Origin: Kiritimatiellia bacterium
Lineage (GTDB): Bacteria > Verrucomicrobiota > Kiritimatiellia > PWTM01
Direction of reading: 5' to 3'
Assembly: GCA_026417735.1 (NCBI GenBank)
Contig: JAOACR010000014.1
Coordinates: 1-64,000, forward strand
DNA: 64,000 nucleotides
Shown here: one piece after another, positions 19,363 to 28,631 of the stretch
Layout of the letters: the number at the start of each line of letters is the position of its first letter
Numbering within the stretch: the first letter of the stretch is position 1
Position numbers and translations under genes: made by a program
Notes under the pieces: model-generated
Seen by the model: only the letters and a program-made list of their open reading frames with translations
Database searches by the model: none
Told to the model about the DNA's origin: nothing

Positions 19363-20814
19363 ATGAACTCGAGCACCCGCACTCCGGCCGCGATCGAGGC
19401 CCTCTACCAGACCCGTCTCCGGCGCTATGTCACCGCGTTGCGCAACGAGAAGCCCGACTGTGTGCCGGTCCGCCCCTTTGCGGCGGAAATGACCGCGGTG
19501 CACTGCGGCTACACCTGCCAGGAGGTCACCCACGACTACCGGCTCGCGTTCGAAGCGGTGATCCGCTGCTGCAAGGACTATGACTGGGACGCCGCGGTCG
19601 CGAACATGGTGTACGTCTGGACCGGGCTCAGCCAGGCGCTCGGCCTCACCTACTACGGGATTCCCGGCCTCGACGTGCCACCGGACACCGGCTTCCAATA
19701 CCGAGAACCGGATGCGGAACATGCGTTCATGCGCGCCGACGAATACGACGCGCTGATCGCAGACCCCTGCGCGTTTCTCTATGAAACCTGGCTGCCCCGC
19801 GTTTCGAACGCGATCGCGGGACCCGACCGGCCGAACACGGCGCGCAGCATGCAGGCGCTGGTGAAGGGGGCGATGGCGATGCTCTCCTATTTCTCCGCGT
19901 TCGGTCCGCAGGTACAGCGCATGCGCACCGAATGCGGCACAGTTTCTGCGATCGCAGGTATTCTGAAGGCACCCATGGACATCCTCGCGGACAAGCTCCG
20001 CGGGTACCTCGGGCTTGCGGAGGATCTGATCGAACGTCCCGCGAAGGTGAAAGCCGCTTGCGAGGCGCTGATGCCGCATCTGTTTCACGTGGCGCTGACC
20101 TCCTCCGACCCCTCGGGGTTGGTGCCGATCGGGTTCTGGATGCATCGTGGTTGTGTGCCGTTCGTTTCGATGAACGACTTCGAGACGATCTTCTGGCCGA
20201 CGCTGCGTCCGATCATCACGGAGCTCTGGCGGCACGGACGTCAGACGATGTTCTATGCGGAGGGCAACTGGGATGCGCACCTGGACCGGTTCGCGGAGCT
20301 GCCCGAACGCAGCATCATCTACCACGTGGACCGCGGCGACCTGCGCCTGGCCCACCGGAAACTGCACCACAAGTTTGCGCTCAGCGGCGGCATTCCGAAC
20401 TTCTTGCTGGCGTACGGCACGCCCGAACAGGTTCGCGCCTGTGTGCGCGATGCGATCCGAGATGTCGGCGCGGACGGCGGGTACATCGTGGACGCGTGCG
20501 CGATCATGCAGAACGAGGTGCGACCCGAAAACGTGCGGGCGATGACGGAGGCCGCGCGCGAGTTCGGAGTCTACAGCGGAGCGCCGACCGGTGACCTGCC
20601 CGTGCGACCGCCGGCCGACGGCGCCGAACGCCCGCCGCCCGCGCCCGAGCTGGCAGTGCCGCGCGTGCCACCGCCCGGCGTCTGCCGGACCTGGGACCAG
20701 GTTGCGCCCGAAATGCCCCCCGTCACCGGCGACGCAGACCTCGTGCGCCGCATCTGGACGGAGGTCGAGGGGTTCGCACACATGTTCATCTGGCAGGTGC
20801 TACTCTCCTTCTGA
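19363..20814 (+). CDS. Uroporphyrinogen decarboxylase-like (URO-D superfamily) protein
   Basis: 483 residues; GGAG lies nine bases before ATG 19363. The body follows the URO-D/MtaA/CmuA TIM-barrel pattern: an N-terminal RRYVTALRNEKPDCVPVRPF, AAVANMVYVWTGLSQALG, a central KAPMDILADKLRGYLGL, GFWMHRGCVPFVS, MFYAEGNWDAHLDRFAELP, and C-terminal FALSGGIPNFLLAYGTPEQV. Divergent members serve as corrinoid methyltransferases or have no known role, so true heme synthesis is unlikely. The C-terminal about 75 residues are proline-rich and then helical, an extension not typical of the family. It is translationally coupled by TGATG to the octaheme cytochrome gene. The call is to superfamily only. Confidence 0.75.
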   Translation: MNSSTRTPAAIEALYQTRLRRYVTALRNEKPDCVPVRPFAAEMTAVHCGYTCQEVTHDYRLAFEAVIRCCKDYDWDAAVANMVYVWTGLSQALGLTYYGIPGLDVPPDTGFQYREPDAEHAFMRADEYDALIADPCAFLYETWLPRVSNAIAGPDRPNTARSMQALVKGAMAMLSYFSAFGPQVQRMRTECGTVSAIAGILKAPMDILADKLRGYLGLAEDLIERPAKVKAACEALMPHLFHVALTSSDPSGLVPIGFWMHRGCVPFVSMNDFETIFWPTLRPIITELWRHGRQTMFYAEGNWDAHLDRFAELPERSIIYHVDRGDLRLAHRKLHHKFALSGGIPNFLLAYGTPEQVRACVRDAIRDVGADGGYIVDACAIMQNEVRPENVRAMTEAAREFGVYSGAPTGDLPVRPPADGAERPPPAPELAVPRVPPPGVCRTWDQVAPEMPPVTGDADLVRRIWTEVEGFAHMFIWQVLLSF

Positions 20815-23162
20815 TGATGGTGCCGGTCCGGTGTTGGCGGAGCGCGGCGGCGATCGGTGCGATCGGGGCGGCCGCAGCGGGGGGCGAGGTCCCCCTGAGC
20901 GCGATCTTCACCGGTTCCTCCGCCTGCCGCGACTGCCACCCGCGCTTCTACGAGCTCTGGGAGTCGTCGCACCACGGTCGCGCGATGCAGCCGGTCGGCG
21001 CGGTGCTTGCGCGCGGCGAATTGACCCCGCACGAAACACCGCTCGAGATCCCGCCGTACCGCTACCAGATGAGGCTGGAGGGCAATCGCGCTGACATGCT
21101 GGAAGAAGGGCCGGAGGGGCGAAAGACCTACCCGGTGCTGTACACGCTGGGCGGAAAAAACGTGTTCTACTTCCTCACGCTGCTGGACGGCGGACGCCTG
21201 CAGGTGATGCCGGTCGCCTACGACGTGGTCGGCCGGCGCTGGATCGACACCACTGGCAGCATGGTGCGCCACGCGGAAGGTCTGAACGACGAGGCGCTGT
21301 ACTGGAAGGAACGGCCACTGACGTTCAACACCTCCTGCTTTGACTGCCACGTCAGCCAGATGTCCCGCGGCTACGACCCGGCGACCGACTCCTACCGCAC
21401 CACCTGGAACGAGCCCGGCATCAACTGTGAGGTCTGCCACGGCCCCGGCGCTGAACACGTCCGCCGCTTCCGCGAAGCGCAGCAGCGCGGCGAACCGCCG
21501 CCCACGAACCTGTTTCTGATCCGAATGAAGGACCTCACGCCGCAGCAGCGCAACGACGCTTGTTCGCCCTGCCACGCAAAAATGCGGCCGCTGACGCCGC
21601 AGTACATCCCTGGCCAACGGTTTTGGGACCACTACGACCTGGTCACCTGGGAACACCCGGACTACTACCCTGACGGGCGCGACCTCGGCGAAAACTACAC
21701 CCTGGGCTCCTGGTTGATGAGCCCCTGCGCGCGCAAGGGGGGCATGGACTGTCTCCACTGCCACACGTCCAGCGGCCGCTACCGCTTTCGCGGAGAAACC
21801 GCCAATCACGCCTGTCTGCCCTGCCACCGCGAGCGAGTGGAGAACGCAGCGGCACATACCCACCATCCCGTCGGCAGCAAGGGCAACGAGTGTGTGTCCT
21901 GCCACATGCCGATGACGTGGTTCGCCCAAATGCGCCGCAGCGATCATTCGATGCGCCCTCCCGCACCGGCCGCAACGATCGCGTTCGGCTCGCCGAACGC
22001 CTGCAACCTCTGCCACTCGAACCAGACGCCCCAGTGGGCCGACACGAAGGTGCGGGAGTGGCGCACGCGTGATTACCAGGCGCCGGTGCTCGCGCTCGGC
22101 CGGCTTGTGCAAGCGGCCCGTTCCAACGACTGGTCGCGGCTGCCGGCGATCCTCGAGTATCTGGGCCGACCCGATGCGGAAGTGATGGCCGCCGCCTCGT
22201 TGCTGCGCCTGCTGGCGGACTGCCCCGACCCGCGCGCCGCAGCGGCCGCCCGCCAGCGCCTTGCCATCGACCCCTCACCCCTGGTGCGCGCGGCCGCGAC
22301 CGAACTGCTCGGACGACAGCGCGACGCTCCCCCCAATCGTGCCGCGCTGTTCGCCGGCTGCCGTGACGAGGCGCGCCTGGTGCGCATCCGCAGCGCGCTG
22401 GCTCTGTCCGGCGCGGTCGGACCAGCCGATCCCGAACCCGACCGCACCGCCTGGTCGGCCGCCATCGCGGAATACCGTGCCTCGCTCGACTGTCGGCCGG
22501 ACGACTGGGCCTCGCACTACAACCTCGGCAATCTCCATCTCGACCAGGGCGACCCGCGCGCGGCGGTCGCCGCGTTCGCTGCCGCGGTGCGGATCGCCCC
22601 CGAACAACCCATGGCCTGGGTGAACGGTGCGATCGCGCACGCCCGCGCGGGCGACCTGGCACAAAGCGAGCAATGGCTCCGCCGTGCGCTTGCGATCGCG
22701 CCTACCAACGCGGTGGCAAACTTCAACCTCGCTCTCGCCGTCGCGGAGCGCGGCCGCCTCGACGAGGCCGAAACGCTGCTGCGCCGCGCGCTGGCCAGCG
22801 ATCCACGCATGGCCGAGGCCGCGTACAACCTCGGGGTGCTGCTCGGGCGCCGATCGCCGGCGGAAGCCATCGAGTGGACCGCGCGGGCGGTTCGTTTTCG
22901 TCCGGCCGACCCGCGGTATCGCTGGACACATGCGTTCTACCTGCACCGCGCCGGGCGAATCGCGGAGGCGCGCGCGGAGCTTGAAGACCTGATGCAGCGG
23001 CGCCCGGTCTTTCCGGACGCGGTGATCCTGCTCGGCGAAATCTACGAAACCGAGGGCCGCGCGGCGGACGCGCGCAAGATCTACGAACTGGCGCTCCAAG
23101 ACCCGGCACTCCCGTCCGACGCAGTACGCACGATCCGCGCCCGCCTTCGCGCGATGCGATGA
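20814..23162 (+). CDS. Octaheme c-type cytochrome fused to HEAT-like and TPR repeats
   Basis: 782 residues. A short leader (AAAIGAIGAAAAGG) precedes eight CxxCH heme sites at Cys38, 175, 205, 250, 313, 334, 360 and 397. The first lies in SSACRDCHPRFYELWESSHHG, a pattern of cytochrome c554/c-prime-like multiheme proteins. Residues about 415-540 are Ala/Arg/Leu helical repeats like HEAT. Residues about 550-780 are TPRs (SHYNLGNLHLDQGDPRAAVA, NFNLALAVAERGRLDEAETL). The hemes would be attached in the periplasm; the repeats suggest docking to partner proteins. Related fusions occur in planctomycetes and acidobacteria without assigned function. The start overlaps the upstream stop as TGATG, and the end overlaps the pabB-pabC start. 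Confidence 0.9.
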   Translation: MMVPVRCWRSAAAIGAIGAAAAGGEVPLSAIFTGSSACRDCHPRFYELWESSHHGRAMQPVGAVLARGELTPHETPLEIPPYRYQMRLEGNRADMLEEGPEGRKTYPVLYTLGGKNVFYFLTLLDGGRLQVMPVAYDVVGRRWIDTTGSMVRHAEGLNDEALYWKERPLTFNTSCFDCHVSQMSRGYDPATDSYRTTWNEPGINCEVCHGPGAEHVRRFREAQQRGEPPPTNLFLIRMKDLTPQQRNDACSPCHAKMRPLTPQYIPGQRFWDHYDLVTWEHPDYYPDGRDLGENYTLGSWLMSPCARKGGMDCLHCHTSSGRYRFRGETANHACLPCHRERVENAAAHTHHPVGSKGNECVSCHMPMTWFAQMRRSDHSMRPPAPAATIAFGSPNACNLCHSNQTPQWADTKVREWRTRDYQAPVLALGRLVQAARSNDWSRLPAILEYLGRPDAEVMAAASLLRLLADCPDPRAAAAARQRLAIDPSPLVRAAATELLGRQRDAPPNRAALFAGCRDEARLVRIRSALALSGAVGPADPEPDRTAWSAAIAEYRASLDCRPDDWASHYNLGNLHLDQGDPRAAVAAFAAAVRIAPEQPMAWVNGAIAHARAGDLAQSEQWLRRALAIAPTNAVANFNLALAVAERGRLDEAETLLRRALASDPRMAEAAYNLGVLLGRRSPAEAIEWTARAVRFRPADPRYRWTHAFYLHRAGRIAEARAELEDLMQRRPVFPDAVILLGEIYETEGRAADARKIYELALQDPALPSDAVRTIRARLRAMR

Positions 23163-24901
23163 GACGCCGCTCGGCCGTTGTCCCCATTCGCTTCCGAGAC
23201 CCCGACCGCGGCGTCGAGTGGCGATTCTGGGCCACGGATGTGTTGTGCGCGAACCGACTTGCCGACGTGTTTCCGCTGCTGGAGGAGGTGGCCGCCGCGA
23301 CGCGACGGGGCTGGTGGGCGGCGGGTTTTCTCGCGTACGACGCCGCGCCCGCCCTCGACCCGGCGATGCGGGTTCGCGGCGGCTGGCGCGGGCCGCTGGC
23401 GTGGTTCGCGCTGGCCCACGCCCCGCGCACCACTCCCGCCCTGCCCCCCGCGCGACCGCCCGCACCGCCGCGCGTGCAGTGGCACCCCCGGCCGGGTTCA
23501 CTGACGTTTCGCGCCGCGGTCGCGGAAATCCGCCGCCGCATCGCCGCCGGTCGCGTGTACCAGATCAACTACACGATTCGTTGGTGCGCACGGCTGGCAC
23601 CGCATATCGCACCCCGCTGGTTCGCCGCGCTGCTGGCAGCTCAGCCGCGCTCGTTTGCGGCGCTCATCCGGACCGCCACATGGACAGTCTTGTCGGTCTC
23701 ACCGGAACTGTTTTTCCGGTTGGAAGGCACCCACATCGAAAGCCGGCCGATGAAAGGCACACGCCCCCGCGCGCCGGACGCGGCCGGTGACCAGCAACGC
23801 CGTTGGGAACTGGCCGCCTCGCCGAAAGACCGCGCCGAGAACGTGATGATCCTCGACATGGTCCGCAACGACCTCGGCCGAATCGCGCGGCCCGGCAGCG
23901 TGACGGTGCCCGCACTATGGACGGTCGAGCGGCATCCCACCGTCTGGCAGATGACGTCCACCGCCGCGGCGAAAACCGATGCGCCGTTGCCGGAGATCTT
24001 CCGCGCGCTGTTCCCGGCCGCCTCGATCACCGGCGCCCCGAAAATCGAGGCGATGCGCACCATCGCGGAGCTCGAACGCGCACCGCGTGGCCTCTACACC
24101 GGCGCCATCGGCGTGGTCGCACCGCGCCGCCGCGCCGTCTTCAGCGTCGCCATCCGTACCATCTGGCACGCTCACCACCGCGCAAGCGCCCGGTATGGCG
24201 CCGGCTGCGGAATCGTCTGGGACTCCGAGCCGCACCGGGAGTGGCGTGAGGCGGCCGACAAGACCCGCGTGCTCCAGCACCGATGGCCCCGCTTCGATCT
24301 GCTAGAGACCCTTTTGTGGCGGCCGAACCACGGCTACCGCTACCTGCGCGCCCACCTCGCGCGGCTTCGCGCCAGCGCTGAGTACTTCGAACGGCGCTTC
24401 GATCCGGCGGGCGTTCGTTCCTCGCTCGCCCGCGCAGTGCATGGCGCCGCCACCCCTCTGCGGGTACGGCTGCGGCTCGATCCGCAAGGACGCGCATCGG
24501 TCCAGGCAGAACCGTTACGCAACGGCCCCGCCGTTCGAATCGTTGGTCTCGCGCGCACCCCGGTGCGATCGGACGACCCGTTCCTACACCACAAAACCAC
24601 CCACCGCGAAGTCTATGAGCGCGCGCGCCGGGAGCGGCCCGAGTGCGACGATGCGATCCTTGTGAACGAACGCGGCGAGATCACCGAGAGCACCATCGCC
24701 AATGTCGTGGTACGGCGAAACGGCGAGTGGTTGACGCCGGACGCCCGTTGCGGCCTGCTCCGAGGCATCCTTCGGGAAGTGCTTCTGGCGCAGGAACGAA
24801 TCCGCGAAGCGGTGCTGCGGCCGGCCGACCTGCGCACCGCAGAACAGATCTGGCTGATCAACTCCGTTCGCGGCTGGATGCCGGCGCGCCTGCGCGATTG
24901 A
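23159..24901 (+). CDS. pabBC: Aminodeoxychorismate synthase component I fused to 4-amino-4-deoxychorismate lyase
   Basis: 580 residues. Residues 1-370 form a chorismate-binding domain: VYQINYTIRW, SPELFFRLEG, RPMKGTRPR (Lys in the PxKGT motif marks PabB rather than TrpE), ENVMILDMVRNDLGRIA, SITGAPKIEAMRTIAELE and GAGCGIVWDSEP. Residues 380-580 form a class IV PLP lyase domain, with HHKTTHREVYERAR as the likely PLP Lys site and NERGEITESTIANVVV. The fusion makes 4-aminobenzoate for folate from chorismate; the PabA glutaminase must be encoded elsewhere. The ATG overlaps the previous stop by four bases, so it is co-translated with the cytochrome gene although no metabolic link is obvious. Confidence 0.93.
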   Translation: MRRRSAVVPIRFRDPDRGVEWRFWATDVLCANRLADVFPLLEEVAAATRRGWWAAGFLAYDAAPALDPAMRVRGGWRGPLAWFALAHAPRTTPALPPARPPAPPRVQWHPRPGSLTFRAAVAEIRRRIAAGRVYQINYTIRWCARLAPHIAPRWFAALLAAQPRSFAALIRTATWTVLSVSPELFFRLEGTHIESRPMKGTRPRAPDAAGDQQRRWELAASPKDRAENVMILDMVRNDLGRIARPGSVTVPALWTVERHPTVWQMTSTAAAKTDAPLPEIFRALFPAASITGAPKIEAMRTIAELERAPRGLYTGAIGVVAPRRRAVFSVAIRTIWHAHHRASARYGAGCGIVWDSEPHREWREAADKTRVLQHRWPRFDLLETLLWRPNHGYRYLRAHLARLRASAEYFERRFDPAGVRSSLARAVHGAATPLRVRLRLDPQGRASVQAEPLRNGPAVRIVGLARTPVRSDDPFLHHKTTHREVYERARRERPECDDAILVNERGEITESTIANVVVRRNGEWLTPDARCGLLRGILREVLLAQERIREAVLRPADLRTAEQIWLINSVRGWMPARLRD

Positions 24902-24970: not shown

Positions 24971-25035
24971 CATGTTGTTCAGGTCCGACGAGGTGGTGTT
25001 CGCCAGGCCGCTGAATGCTCGAACGGAGGTGCGCG

Positions 25036-27321
25036 ATGGGTGGGATACAATGGCGATTGGGTCTGGTGGCGTTGCTGACGGGATTCGGCGCACAGGGCGC
25101 GGTGCTGATCGAAGCGGAGTCGTTCGAGAACCTCGGCGGGTGGACGCTCGATACGCAGTTCATCCACATCATGGGGTCGCCCTATCTGCTCGCGCACGGT
25201 CTTGGCCGGCCCGTCGCTGACGCGGTAACGCGCGTGCGTCTGCCCAGCGCCGGCCGGTACCGCGTTTGGGCGCGCACAAAAGACTGGGTGGCGCGATGGG
25301 GGGCACCCGGCGCACCGGGTCGCTTCCAGATCCTGATCAACGGCCGCCCCCTTCCGCAGACCTTTGGCGACCGTGGCGCCGAGTGGCACTGGCAGGACGG
25401 CGGCGTTGTCGAACTCGACTCCGCGGAGGCGACGATTGCGCTGCGGGACCTCACGGGGTTTGACGGCCGTTGTGATGCGATCGTGCTCGCCGCGCCCGAC
25501 GCCCCGCCACCGCCGGCCGGTGGCGACGCGCTATGGCGCTGGCGTCGGGAACGGCTCAACGCAACCGAGCCCGAGGACGGCGGCGAAGCCGATGTGGTGG
25601 TCGCCGGTGGGGGGTTGGCCGGCACGGCCGCGGCGATCTCCGCCGCGCGGATGGGATGCCGCGTGATTCTGATCCAGAACCGACCCGTGCTCGGCGGCAA
25701 CGCGAGCGCGGAGATCCGCGTGTGGCCGCAGGGCAACACGCGGCTGCCACCTTTCCCGCGCATCGGTGAAATCGTCGAGGAGATCGCCGGCAAACCCAGC
25801 GAGAGTCCCGCGCGAACGGAGGAGTACATCGACGACAAACGCGAGGCGGTCGTCCGCGCGGAGCCGAACATCGCCCTGTATCTCCTCCATCACGTTCACC
25901 GCGTCGAAATGGAGGGCGGGCGCATCCGCGCGGTGATCGCGCTGGACGTGCGGCGCGGCGTCGACAAGCGGTTCCGGGGCCGCATCTTCGTCGACGCGAC
26001 CGGCCACGCGGATCTCGGGGTGCTTGCGGGCGCGGACCACACGATCGCGGAGCGCGGCCACATGGGCATGAGCAACATGTGGCGGTGGCGCCGCGCGGAC
26101 GGCCCACGGCCGTTCCCGGATGTGCCCTGGGCGCTGCCGCTGGAGCTGAACGACTTCCCCTTCCCGAAGAATTTCAAGGGCGAGTGGTTCTGGGAAAGCG
26201 GCTTTGACCTGCATCCGATCGACGATCTGGAAGAGGTGCGTGACCACAACCTTCGCGCGGTGTTCGGCGCGTTCGCAGCGATGAAGCGTGCGGAGGCGGG
26301 CGGCAAGCCGATGTTTCCGGATGCGGAGCTGGAATGGGTGGCTGCGATCGGCGGCACCCGCGAATCGCGCCAACTGCTCGGCGACGTGATCCTCACCGAG
26401 CAACACATCCGGCAGCGCACGGAGTTTCCGGACGCCTGCGTGCCGACCACCTGGGACATTGACCTGCACTATCCCGACCCGAAGTACACCAACGCCGCCC
26501 CCCATGCGCCGTTCATCTCTCGTGCGGTCTTCGGCAAGGCCGTGGACCGCACCGTCGGCTACCCGATTCCCTACCGCTGTTTTTACTCGCGCAACGTGCC
26601 GAACCTGTTCATGGCAGGTCGGTGCATCAGTGTCACCCGGGAGGCGCTCGGCACGATCCGGGTGATGAAGACGGGCGGCATGATGGGCGAGGTGGTGGGA
26701 CGCGCCGCATCGGTGTGTCTGCGGAACAACGCGGATCCCCGCGACGTGTATCTGCGCCATTGGGCAGAGCTGCGGTCGCTGCTGGAGCTGCCGGGCGTCG
26801 CCCGACGTGCCCACTACCGGGATGAACCCGTCGTCCCACCCGACGCCCCCCCGCCCGCCCCGCCGCCGGCGCCGTCCAACCCAGATCGCAAACCGGGCAT
26901 CTCGCCGGCAACCTTGCGGGGGGTGGTGGTCGACGACGAAGCTGCACGACTTTCGGGAACCTGGACGGCCGCCGACGGCTTGGAGGGATACGTCGGCATC
27001 GGCTACCGGTACAGCTCACCCGGCCGCGCCGCGACCGCGCGGTTTGAGTTCCCGCCCTCCCTCGCCGGTCGCCACGAAGTGCGCTTCGCCTATCGCCCGC
27101 ACGAAAACCGCGCCTCGAACGTGTTGGTGCGCGTGATACACGCGGACGGCGAAGCGACCATCCGCCTCAACCAGCGGGAATCGCCGCCGCTGCCGGGCGG
27201 TATGGTCTCGCTCGGCACCTTTCGGTTCGAGGCCGGTCGCCCCGGCGCAGTGATCGTGGAGACCGGCGACGCGGGCGGTCACGTCTGTATCGACGCGGTG
27301 CAGGCGCTGCCATCCCCGTGA
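25036..27321 (+). CDS. Secreted FAD-dependent oxidoreductase with golvesin-like C-terminal domain
   Basis: 761 residues; GGAGG lies six bases before ATG 25036. A signal peptide is followed by a beta domain with LIEAESFENLGGWTLD and GRYRVWARTKDW (residues 20-160), like carbohydrate-binding or golvesin folds. The FAD domain starts near residue 185 (DVVVAGGGLAGTAAAISAAR), with NRPVLGGNASAEIRVWPQG, RIFVDATGHADLGVLAGADH, PIPYRCFYSRNVPNLFMAGR and IRVMKTGGMMGEVVG, the FAD_oxidored pattern common in PVC and Bacteroidota glycan loci. Residues about 628-758 form a golvesin-type domain (VVDDEAARLSGTWTA...GIGYRYSS). The substrate is unknown; oxidation of a sugar-derived alcohol is possible. It overlaps the BNR_4 gene start (GTGA). 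Confidence 0.85.
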   Translation: MGGIQWRLGLVALLTGFGAQGAVLIEAESFENLGGWTLDTQFIHIMGSPYLLAHGLGRPVADAVTRVRLPSAGRYRVWARTKDWVARWGAPGAPGRFQILINGRPLPQTFGDRGAEWHWQDGGVVELDSAEATIALRDLTGFDGRCDAIVLAAPDAPPPPAGGDALWRWRRERLNATEPEDGGEADVVVAGGGLAGTAAAISAARMGCRVILIQNRPVLGGNASAEIRVWPQGNTRLPPFPRIGEIVEEIAGKPSESPARTEEYIDDKREAVVRAEPNIALYLLHHVHRVEMEGGRIRAVIALDVRRGVDKRFRGRIFVDATGHADLGVLAGADHTIAERGHMGMSNMWRWRRADGPRPFPDVPWALPLELNDFPFPKNFKGEWFWESGFDLHPIDDLEEVRDHNLRAVFGAFAAMKRAEAGGKPMFPDAELEWVAAIGGTRESRQLLGDVILTEQHIRQRTEFPDACVPTTWDIDLHYPDPKYTNAAPHAPFISRAVFGKAVDRTVGYPIPYRCFYSRNVPNLFMAGRCISVTREALGTIRVMKTGGMMGEVVGRAASVCLRNNADPRDVYLRHWAELRSLLELPGVARRAHYRDEPVVPPDAPPPAPPPAPSNPDRKPGISPATLRGVVVDDEAARLSGTWTAADGLEGYVGIGYRYSSPGRAATARFEFPPSLAGRHEVRFAYRPHENRASNVLVRVIHADGEATIRLNQRESPPLPGGMVSLGTFRFEAGRPGAVIVETGDAGGHVCIDAVQALPSP

Positions 27322-28631
27322 AACCGCAGCAAGTCGCCGCCGTACTCGGGTGGGCGGCGGGCGCTGGGTGGTCGGCTTCCGAAGAGATCACCGTGGACCG
27401 CGTCTGGGCAGGCCATCCCGTGCAGTTCGCACTGCTCACCGCCCCACCCCATCAATATGTCGGCTACTATGACGCCGACCGGTGGATGACCATTGCGCAG
27501 CGTCGGCTCGGCGCGACCAACTGGACCCGCTTGCGGCTGGACAGTCAGCTCGGCTGGGACTCGCACAATTCCATCGCGATGGCGGTGGATCGCACGGGTC
27601 GCCTCCACGTCGCTGGCAACATGCACTGCGTGCCGCTGGTGTACTACCGCAGCCGGGAACCTGCCGATGTCACGACACTTCAACGGCAACCCGGCATGGT
27701 CGGCGAACGGGAGAGCAGTGTCACCTACCCTGTTTTCTTTCGCGACGCGGCCGGCCGACTTCTGTTCCGATATCGGGAGGGACGCAGCGGCCGAGGGGAT
27801 GACCTGCTGAACGTGTGGGACGATACGACGCAACGCTGGCGGCACTGGCTCGACACGCCCCTGTTCAGTGGAGAAGGCAAGATGAACGCCTATGCGACGG
27901 TGCCCACGCAGGGGCCGGACGGCCGGTTTCACATCGTGTGGGTCTGGCGCAACTCCCCCGACTGCGCCAGCTCGCACTCACCCGGCTACGCCCGCAGCCG
28001 CGATCTGTGCGCTTGGGAGGACGCGTTCGGACGGCCGCTGCCGCTGCCGATCACGCCGGCCGCCGGCGGAACCGTGGACCCTGTGGCCCCCGGCGGTGGC
28101 GTCATCAACGGCAATGTACGGCTGGGGTTTGACTCCGCAGCACGCCCCATTGTCACTTACCACAAGTACGACGTGAAGGGGGATCTCCAAATCTTTGTTG
28201 CGCGGCCGGAGTCAAACCACTGGCGGATTGTGCAGGTCAGCGATTGGGCCGGCTATCGGTGGTCGTTTGGTGGCGCAGGCTCGATTGCGTTCGAGGTACG
28301 GGTTCATCCGATCCGGTGGATCGCACCGGGCCGACTGCTATTGAGATGGCACCGACGCGACGAGTCCGGCGTATGGCTCCTGGACGAAACCACCCTTCGA
28401 CTCCTCCCCGCGCAAGCGCCTCCTGACATCGCGGGGGCACGGGAGGCTGCGGAATGCCGACTTTTTTCAGAGCGGCCCGACCTCGAGCTGCGCACCGCAC
28501 CCGACAGCGGTGAATCGCCGTCGGGCACCGTCTACCGACTTGTATGGGAAACCCTCGGCCCGAATCGCGACCGACCCCGCAACCCGCCATGGCCGGCCCC
28601 ATCCCGGTTGCGTGTTGTCCGGATGAAGTAA
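27318..28631 (+). CDS. BNR_4 repeat beta-propeller protein, possible polysaccharide lyase relative
   Basis: 437 residues from GTG 27318, overlapping the oxidoreductase stop. The sequence matches BNR_4 propellers: HQYVGYYDADRWMTIAQR, WDSHNSIAMAVDRTGRLHVAG with NMH following (His83, His97, His103), VTYPVFFRDAAGRLLFRYRE, GKMNAYATVP and GRFHIVWVWR. Seven-bladed ulvan lyases of families PL24/PL25 share this fold and use His/Tyr/Arg chemistry, so a lyase role is possible but not proven. Many BNR_4 proteins have no assigned activity. A weak leader (AAVLGWAAGAGWSAS) may direct export. Coupling with the FAD oxidoreductase suggests a joint step in polysaccharide breakdown. Confidence 0.75.
   Translation: MKPQQVAAVLGWAAGAGWSASEEITVDRVWAGHPVQFALLTAPPHQYVGYYDADRWMTIAQRRLGATNWTRLRLDSQLGWDSHNSIAMAVDRTGRLHVAGNMHCVPLVYYRSREPADVTTLQRQPGMVGERESSVTYPVFFRDAAGRLLFRYREGRSGRGDDLLNVWDDTTQRWRHWLDTPLFSGEGKMNAYATVPTQGPDGRFHIVWVWRNSPDCASSHSPGYARSRDLCAWEDAFGRPLPLPITPAAGGTVDPVAPGGGVINGNVRLGFDSAARPIVTYHKYDVKGDLQIFVARPESNHWRIVQVSDWAGYRWSFGGAGSIAFEVRVHPIRWIAPGRLLLRWHRRDESGVWLLDETTLRLLPAQAPPDIAGAREAAECRLFSERPDLELRTAPDSGESPSGTVYRLVWETLGPNRDRPRNPPWPAPSRLRVVRMK

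Follow-up and report, generated by a model that had tools for sequence, protein, structure and literature searches.

An octahaem cytochrome c fused to HEAT-like and tetratricopeptide repeats in a Kiritimatiellia bacterium represents a large bacterial family tied by gene order to sulfatases in several phyla

Among the cytochromes of the NrfA superfamily (NrfA, ONR, HAO, OTR, MccA and OcwA), MccA contains a Cu site and binds one haem through a CX15CH motif, OTR has lysine as the ligand of its active-site haem, and HAO carries a Tyr-crosslinked P460 haem. OcwA is the cell-surface terminal reductase for electrodes of Thermincola potens; its haems 1, 3, 4, 6, 7 and 8 have bis-His ligation, haem 9 has His/Met ligation, and haems 2 and 5 are open (PMC6703420). 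Haems 1-4 and 6-9 of OcwA superpose on those of MccA, which holds copper, and haem 2 forms the active site of each protein; OcwA is slow at reducing nitrite and can both reduce and oxidise hydroxylamine (PMC6703420). Here we analysed a gene at 20814-23162 in the contig JAOACR010000014.1 of a Kiritimatiellia bacterium (assembly GCA_026417735.1; the window is the whole stretch analysed, 64,000 nucleotides from positions 1 to 64,000). The gene encodes an eight-haem cytochrome c fused to HEAT-like repeats and tetratricopeptide repeats (TPR). Such fusions are not unusual: they form a large, uncharacterised bacterial family, linked to sulfatases by gene order in several phyla. The protein is most likely a redox enzyme or a terminal electron carrier, with a partner held by the repeats.

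As the first-pass annotation had proposed, the open reading frame (ORF) contains eight CxxCH motifs within residues 38-401, starting at residues 38, 175, 205, 250, 313, 334, 360 and 397. CxxCH-coding DNA occurs 139 times in the whole genome (6.2 Mb, both strands), so that about 0.03 occurrences are expected per 1.1 kb of one strand, and the eight in-frame motifs are therefore not due to chance. The Cys-Cys-His sets of all eight were invariant in 76 aligned relatives. Pfam matches of the 782-aa protein were Cytochrome_C554 (E 1.9e-8), Cytochrome_C7 and TPR_16 (E 1.8e-25); the HEAT_2 match was weak and under the cut-off, and it was above the cut-off in a Rhizobium relative. The full-length AlphaFold2 model (37 sequences) had a predicted local distance difference test score (pLDDT) of 85.3 and a predicted template modelling score (pTM) of 0.85. 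The TPR_16 match and the helix pairs of the model (Table 1) confirmed the proposed covalent fusion of the cytochrome to HEAT-like and TPR repeats.

Matches at E 1e-8 were found in 23 of the 97 searched genomes, including all four genomes of the genus, and a scan of GTDB species gave at least 479 stretches encoding relatives. The family occurs in Verrucomicrobiota, Planctomycetota, Desulfobacterota, Bacteroidota, Acidobacteriota and Proteobacteria. We examined the 80 best-scoring loci, which are not a random sample, and a gene was parsed in 77 of them. A single gene of 720-1088 aa (as called) had eight CxxCH motifs in 75 of these relatives; the other two had seven, and one of the two begins at a contig edge. 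All 35 further relatives from other genomes or plasmids had eight. Helical repeats were present in nearly all relatives having eight motifs (36 were aligned through the repeat region), and in the relatives the TPR part is no separate gene, leaving the fusion intact. The protein of 20814-23162 shares this layout, with eight CxxCH motifs of conserved spacing and a helical repeat arm in one gene. In the unannotated loci, genes were called as the longest non-overlapping ORFs; this misplaces starts and may select an antisense ORF, as happened for the URO-D-like gene upstream of 20814-23162. The tree of the family was built quickly and many of its forks are open, and several of the genomes are metagenome-assembled genomes (MAGs), which may be incomplete.

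More distant relatives, about 30% identical and of the same layout, make up subfamily B, to which genes on plasmids of Methylosinus, Rhizobium, Sinorhizobium, Vibrio and Pseudoalteromonas belong. The RefSeq proteins of subfamily B, about 27-33% identical, have the same eight haems and repeats, and they differ in having Met in place of Cys305 and in their sulfatase neighbours. Relatives are labelled in RefSeq as 'multiheme c-type cytochrome' or 'tetratricopeptide repeat protein'. For a subfamily B relative from Alisedimentitalea, Pfam matches were obtained for the haem domain and none for TPR at 1e-6. The viral contigs searched gave no match to the protein.

When the full-length model was used as the Foldseek query, TPR matches dominated the result, and the haem domain was therefore folded alone (pLDDT 85.8, pTM 0.83). 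The best match of this model was OcwA (6i5b; E 7.9e-14, template modelling score normalised by the query 0.57, 18% identity), followed by MccA (4rkm; E 6.2e-3), with nothing else below 0.01. A family profile compared with the PDB also gave OcwA 6i5b as the best match (E 1.6e-25), followed by the multihaem cytochrome 6qvm, cytochrome c554 and NrfA. In the C-terminal haem block, CxxCHMP...DH...CxxCH aligns with NrfA (6v0a, 8bcx and 1fs7). Judging from the model and these alignments, the haem domain is an NrfA/MccA/OcwA-type core, closest to OcwA and then to MccA, and with such a core a passive scaffold is no likelier than a redox enzyme.

Outside the motifs, six histidines (54, 215, 273, 348, 351 and 378) are kept at about 90% or more in the alignment of relatives; this is the number that the OcwA plan (six bis-His haems, one His/Met haem and an open haem 2) needs once OcwA haem 5 is left out. 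Cys305 aligns five residues before the His-His motif above OcwA haem 2, and K115 is conserved in subfamily A only. The histidine count and the Cys305 alignment together suggest that one haem is likely open, and possibly catalytic. Two points weigh against catalysis at haem 2: its openness is read from the alignment, and the catalytic CxxCK motif is absent, since the eight motifs are CxxCH in all 76 relatives.

Plain CxxCH at all eight positions would also suit a non-catalytic periplasmic hub, in which a haem wire would lead from an inner-membrane quinol dehydrogenase (e.g. of NrfH/NapC type) to TPR-held proteins, including for extracellular electron transfer. The best structural relative, OcwA, serves electrodes at the cell surface (PMC6703420), porin-multihaem clusters have been proposed in Verrucomicrobia (PMC5615132), the protein has a weak similarity to the DmsE/decahaem profile, and the source genome has an NrfHA pair on contig 9. 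However, neither a porin nor a quinol dehydrogenase recurs often beside the cytochrome gene, the core matches NrfA/MccA-type enzymes, and the number of conserved histidines leaves haems without a His ligand. We therefore consider such a hub possible, though rather unlikely. The periplasmic electron-transfer scaffold of the first-pass annotation held in part: export is probable, whereas the scaffold role, although possible, must be set against a core resembling the catalytic cytochromes NrfA, MccA and OcwA. The NrfHA pair itself lies at about 251702-253622 of contig 9 (L159:8703-10623), where NrfH with four CxxCH motifs is followed by an NrfA-like protein whose five haem motifs are all CxxCH; the first, usually CxxCK, is CLHCH.

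A reductase of N or S oxyanions (nitrite, hydroxylamine, sulfite or tetrathionate) with a docking tail and no tie to sulfatases would agree with the NrfA/MccA/OcwA fold and with the activity of OcwA on nitrite and hydroxylamine. We regard it as improbable: the protein has neither CxxCK nor the CX15CH motif of MccA, the source genome already has NrfHA, and the sulfatase neighbours described below would be left unexplained.

Outside the genus, sulfatases were the only neighbours to recur strongly, with the cytochrome gene beside them in Desulfobacterota and Proteobacteria. Sulfatase genes occupied 31 of 437 slots within three genes of the cytochrome, versus 8 of 527 farther slots, and 29 of the 31 close ones were co-directional with the cytochrome gene. 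Sulfatase was also the commonest Pfam family among the close co-directional neighbours (24 of 129), the next family having 6 when the C-terminal domain of the sulfatase itself is set aside. In the Desulfobacterota-type and Nitrospirota genomes (n = 17), which hold 1-8 sulfatases each, a sulfatase lay within 5 kb of the cytochrome in 11, versus 0.18 expected. A sulfatase was beside the cytochrome in seven of eight plasmid loci, which had been chosen by rank and taxonomic spread and not by their neighbours. The two genes overlap by 4 bp in Methylosinus. On rhizobial plasmids the genes run arylsulfatase-HAD-cytochrome, and one of these plasmids has an additional gene in the series. A HAD gene accompanies the sulfatase in both Desulfobacterota and rhizobia. 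On the Rhizobium and Sinorhizobium plasmids (L163, L167 and L169), a histidine kinase and response regulators adjoin these genes. Other recurrent neighbours (histidine kinases, RidA-like and HAD proteins) reached at most 6 of 129, and a synteny of HAD, kinase and PtsI-like genes in Pontiella-like genomes was taken as lineage synteny, not function.

From this gene order we infer a functional tie between the family and sulfatases, which the member at 20814-23162 may share. Several points weigh against this. The nominal p of 6e-19 for the low-sulfatase genomes ignores relatedness, as related genomes were counted, and belongs to a statistic selected once the data had been seen. Hardly any sulfatase adjacency occurs in the class of the source organism or in most subfamily B members from Planctomycetes, Verrucomicrobia and Chlamydiae (PVC), and the sulfatase nearest to 20814-23162 is about 11 kb away. 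The neighbourhood could instead be an inherited island, or reflect a general stress or sulfated-glycan context, and be uninformative on function; related Desulfobacterota loci indeed cluster in the tree, and adjacency is rare in Kiritimatiellota/Lentisphaerota. We find this doubtful, since the flanking sulfatases belong to different subfamilies (CTAGR, CSPTR and CxPSR) and lie on either side of the gene, and the adjacency occurs in both cytochrome subfamilies and in different phyla. In the source genome (3.1 Mb), 41 sulfatase matches were counted, together with three FGE-type matches and, below the cut-off, a single match to an anaerobic maturase that contains a TGA stop.

A general role in sulfatase maturation lost support, as most of the genomes tested have known maturases. 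In the two genomes of L108 and L121, where the cytochrome lies directly beside a Cys-type sulfatase, no anaerobic maturase and no FGE were found at the thresholds used. The protein might serve periplasmic sulfatases as their dedicated redox partner, for example by providing a third way of making or repairing their formylglycine, and its TPR arm would then grip the sulfatase. We consider this highly improbable; L094 and L102 have a known maturase on the same contig as the cytochrome, and the MAGs concerned may be incomplete, so that little support is left.

The N-terminus carries a probable signal peptide (Table 1), and residues 1-34 form a loose, low-confidence tail in the AlphaFold2 model. 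The N-termini of relatives have Sec-like or lipobox signals, with a lipoprotein lipobox in several. The protein is probably exported via its Sec-like N-terminus, and with a plausible export signal there is no conflict with haem attachment. Cytochrome c maturation genes were found: a CcsA-like (PF01578) gene and a ResB gene lie no more than 2 kb apart on contig 18 of the source genome, indicating System II maturation.

We infer the export, the ligand pattern, catalysis at haem 2 and the docking role as parts of one scheme. After export, the Ccs (System II) machinery would attach the eight haems in the periplasm, and the protein would fold as an NrfA-superfamily octahaem core. A His/His haem wire built on the six conserved non-motif histidines would conduct electrons towards or away from a single haem, at which a small substrate would be reduced or oxidised. 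This is most likely haem 2, which would have no conserved histidine on its distal side. The C-terminal HEAT-TPR arm would dock a partner protein and position the redox domain, and across the family the partner or pathway would be connected with periplasmic sulfatases. An exported octahaem redox protein of the NrfA superfamily, with a HEAT-TPR arm docking a partner and a family connection with periplasmic sulfatases, is the explanation that we favour, and we give it about an even chance of being correct.

The cytochrome gene is coupled by TGATG to a URO-D-like gene, as noted at first (TGA 20812-20814, ATG 20814-20816). The URO-D-like ORF opens at TTG 19354, and ATG 19363 is the likelier start by conservation. 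A second overlap, ATGA at 23159-23162, links the cytochrome gene to a PabB-PabC gene. The upstream stop/start overlap is found in all four genomes of the genus, and the downstream overlap in two of the four. This upstream overlap would suit a partnership of the cytochrome and the URO-D-like protein in the chemistry of corrinoids or tetrapyrroles, as had been suggested. However, more than 80 loci gave no URO-D relative near the cytochrome gene in any other genus, and the third gene belongs to folate biosynthesis. URO-D and PabB-PabC relatives occurred only at same-genus loci and were ruled out as conserved partners. The link to tetrapyrroles is thus unsupported, because the three-gene order, for which a search elsewhere had been proposed, is confined to the genus, and we give the partnership next to no credence. 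The arrangement has the look of an operon of local extent and not of a module that is conserved. In genome G002 (L065 / L146, L009), the URO-D-like gene matches in several frames (tblastn) and is broken or mis-assembled. Downstream, 25015-28631 encodes an FAD-dependent oxidoreductase with a golvesin C-terminal domain, and then a BNR_4 protein related to an alpha-L-rhamnosidase family.

Table 1. Features of the cytochrome gene and its immediate neighbours (window coordinates; residue numbers in brackets)
Feature	Coordinates	Strand	Basis or remark
Octahaem cytochrome c fused to HEAT+TPR solenoid	20814..23162	+	782 aa ORF; Pfam, AlphaFold2
Probable signal peptide (1 to ~24), MMVPVRCWRSAAAIGAIGAAAAGG	20814..20885	+	positive n-region, Ala/Ile/Gly hydrophobic stretch
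Octahaem domain (28-405): haem 1, beta-rich insert (~77-145), haems 2-8	20895..22028	+	model, Foldseek, profile
Haem 1 CRDCH (38-42)	20925..20939	+	motif, invariant
Haem 2 CFDCH (175-179), candidate catalytic haem	21336..21350	+	alignment with OcwA and MccA haem 2
Haem 3 CEVCH (205-209)	21426..21440	+	motif
Haem 4 CSPCH (250-254)	21561..21575	+	motif
Cys305, non-haem cysteine	21726..21728	+	invariant in subfamily A, Met at same column in subfamily B
Haem 5 CLHCH (313-317)	21750..21764	+	motif
Haem 6 CLPCH (334-338)	21813..21827	+	motif
Haem 7 CVSCH-MP (360-364)	21891..21905	+	aligns with NrfA CxxCHMP haem
Haem 8 CNLCH (397-401)	22002..22016	+	aligns with last NrfA haem
HEAT-like repeats, four helix pairs (406-530)	22029..22403	+	DSSP of AlphaFold2 model; HEAT_2 weak
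TPR solenoid, seven helix pairs (541-781)	22434..23156	+	TPR_16 E 1.8e-25; pLDDT mostly >90
URO-D-superfamily protein, translationally coupled upstream	19363..20814	+	PF01208 E 7.3e-22
PabB-PabC fusion (aminodeoxychorismate synthase I / lyase-like), downstream	23159..24901	+	PF00425 E 6.6e-77, PF01063 E 3.1e-38

The covalent combination of eight haems and a docking arm has been kept across many phyla, and the literature searched (multihaem, TPR or HEAT, sulfatase) gave no description of the family. The genomic link to sulfatases, which spans sulfate reducers to nodule rhizobia, is the first real hint of the function of the family. If the link is functional, it would point to an as yet unassigned redox step in the metabolism of sulfate esters, and genetically tractable species such as Sinorhizobium meliloti would allow it to be tested.

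Compared with known systems, the protein resembles OcwA in its c554-like front, the long beta-rich insert that separates haem 1 from haem 2, the NrfA-like back and, once OcwA haem 5 is omitted, an equal count of conserved distal histidines, whereas OcwA has nine haems, two of them open, and no HEAT-TPR arm. With MccA it shares the octahaem core, in which haem 2 is the active site of MccA; in contrast to the CX15CH of MccA, all eight motifs here are standard CxxCH. The MccA copper is held by two cysteines beside haem 2, and Cys305 is the one invariant non-haem cysteine of subfamily A. The last two haems align with the CxxCHMP...H...CxxCH block of NrfA, but unlike NrfA and the octahaem nitrite reductases the protein lacks a CxxCK catalytic haem and has fused repeats. 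Local similarity to the DmsE/MtrA decahaem cytochromes (TIGR03508) was seen at haems 2-4 in all 76 relatives, although the score of 39.1 bits compares with an NCBIfam cut-off of 192, and eight haems with ten. The C-terminal haem block and the core fold are those of the NrfA superfamily; since CxxCK, CX15CH and a ninth haem are all absent, the protein is best placed as a variant of this superfamily, distinct from the nitrite reductases, MccA and OcwA.

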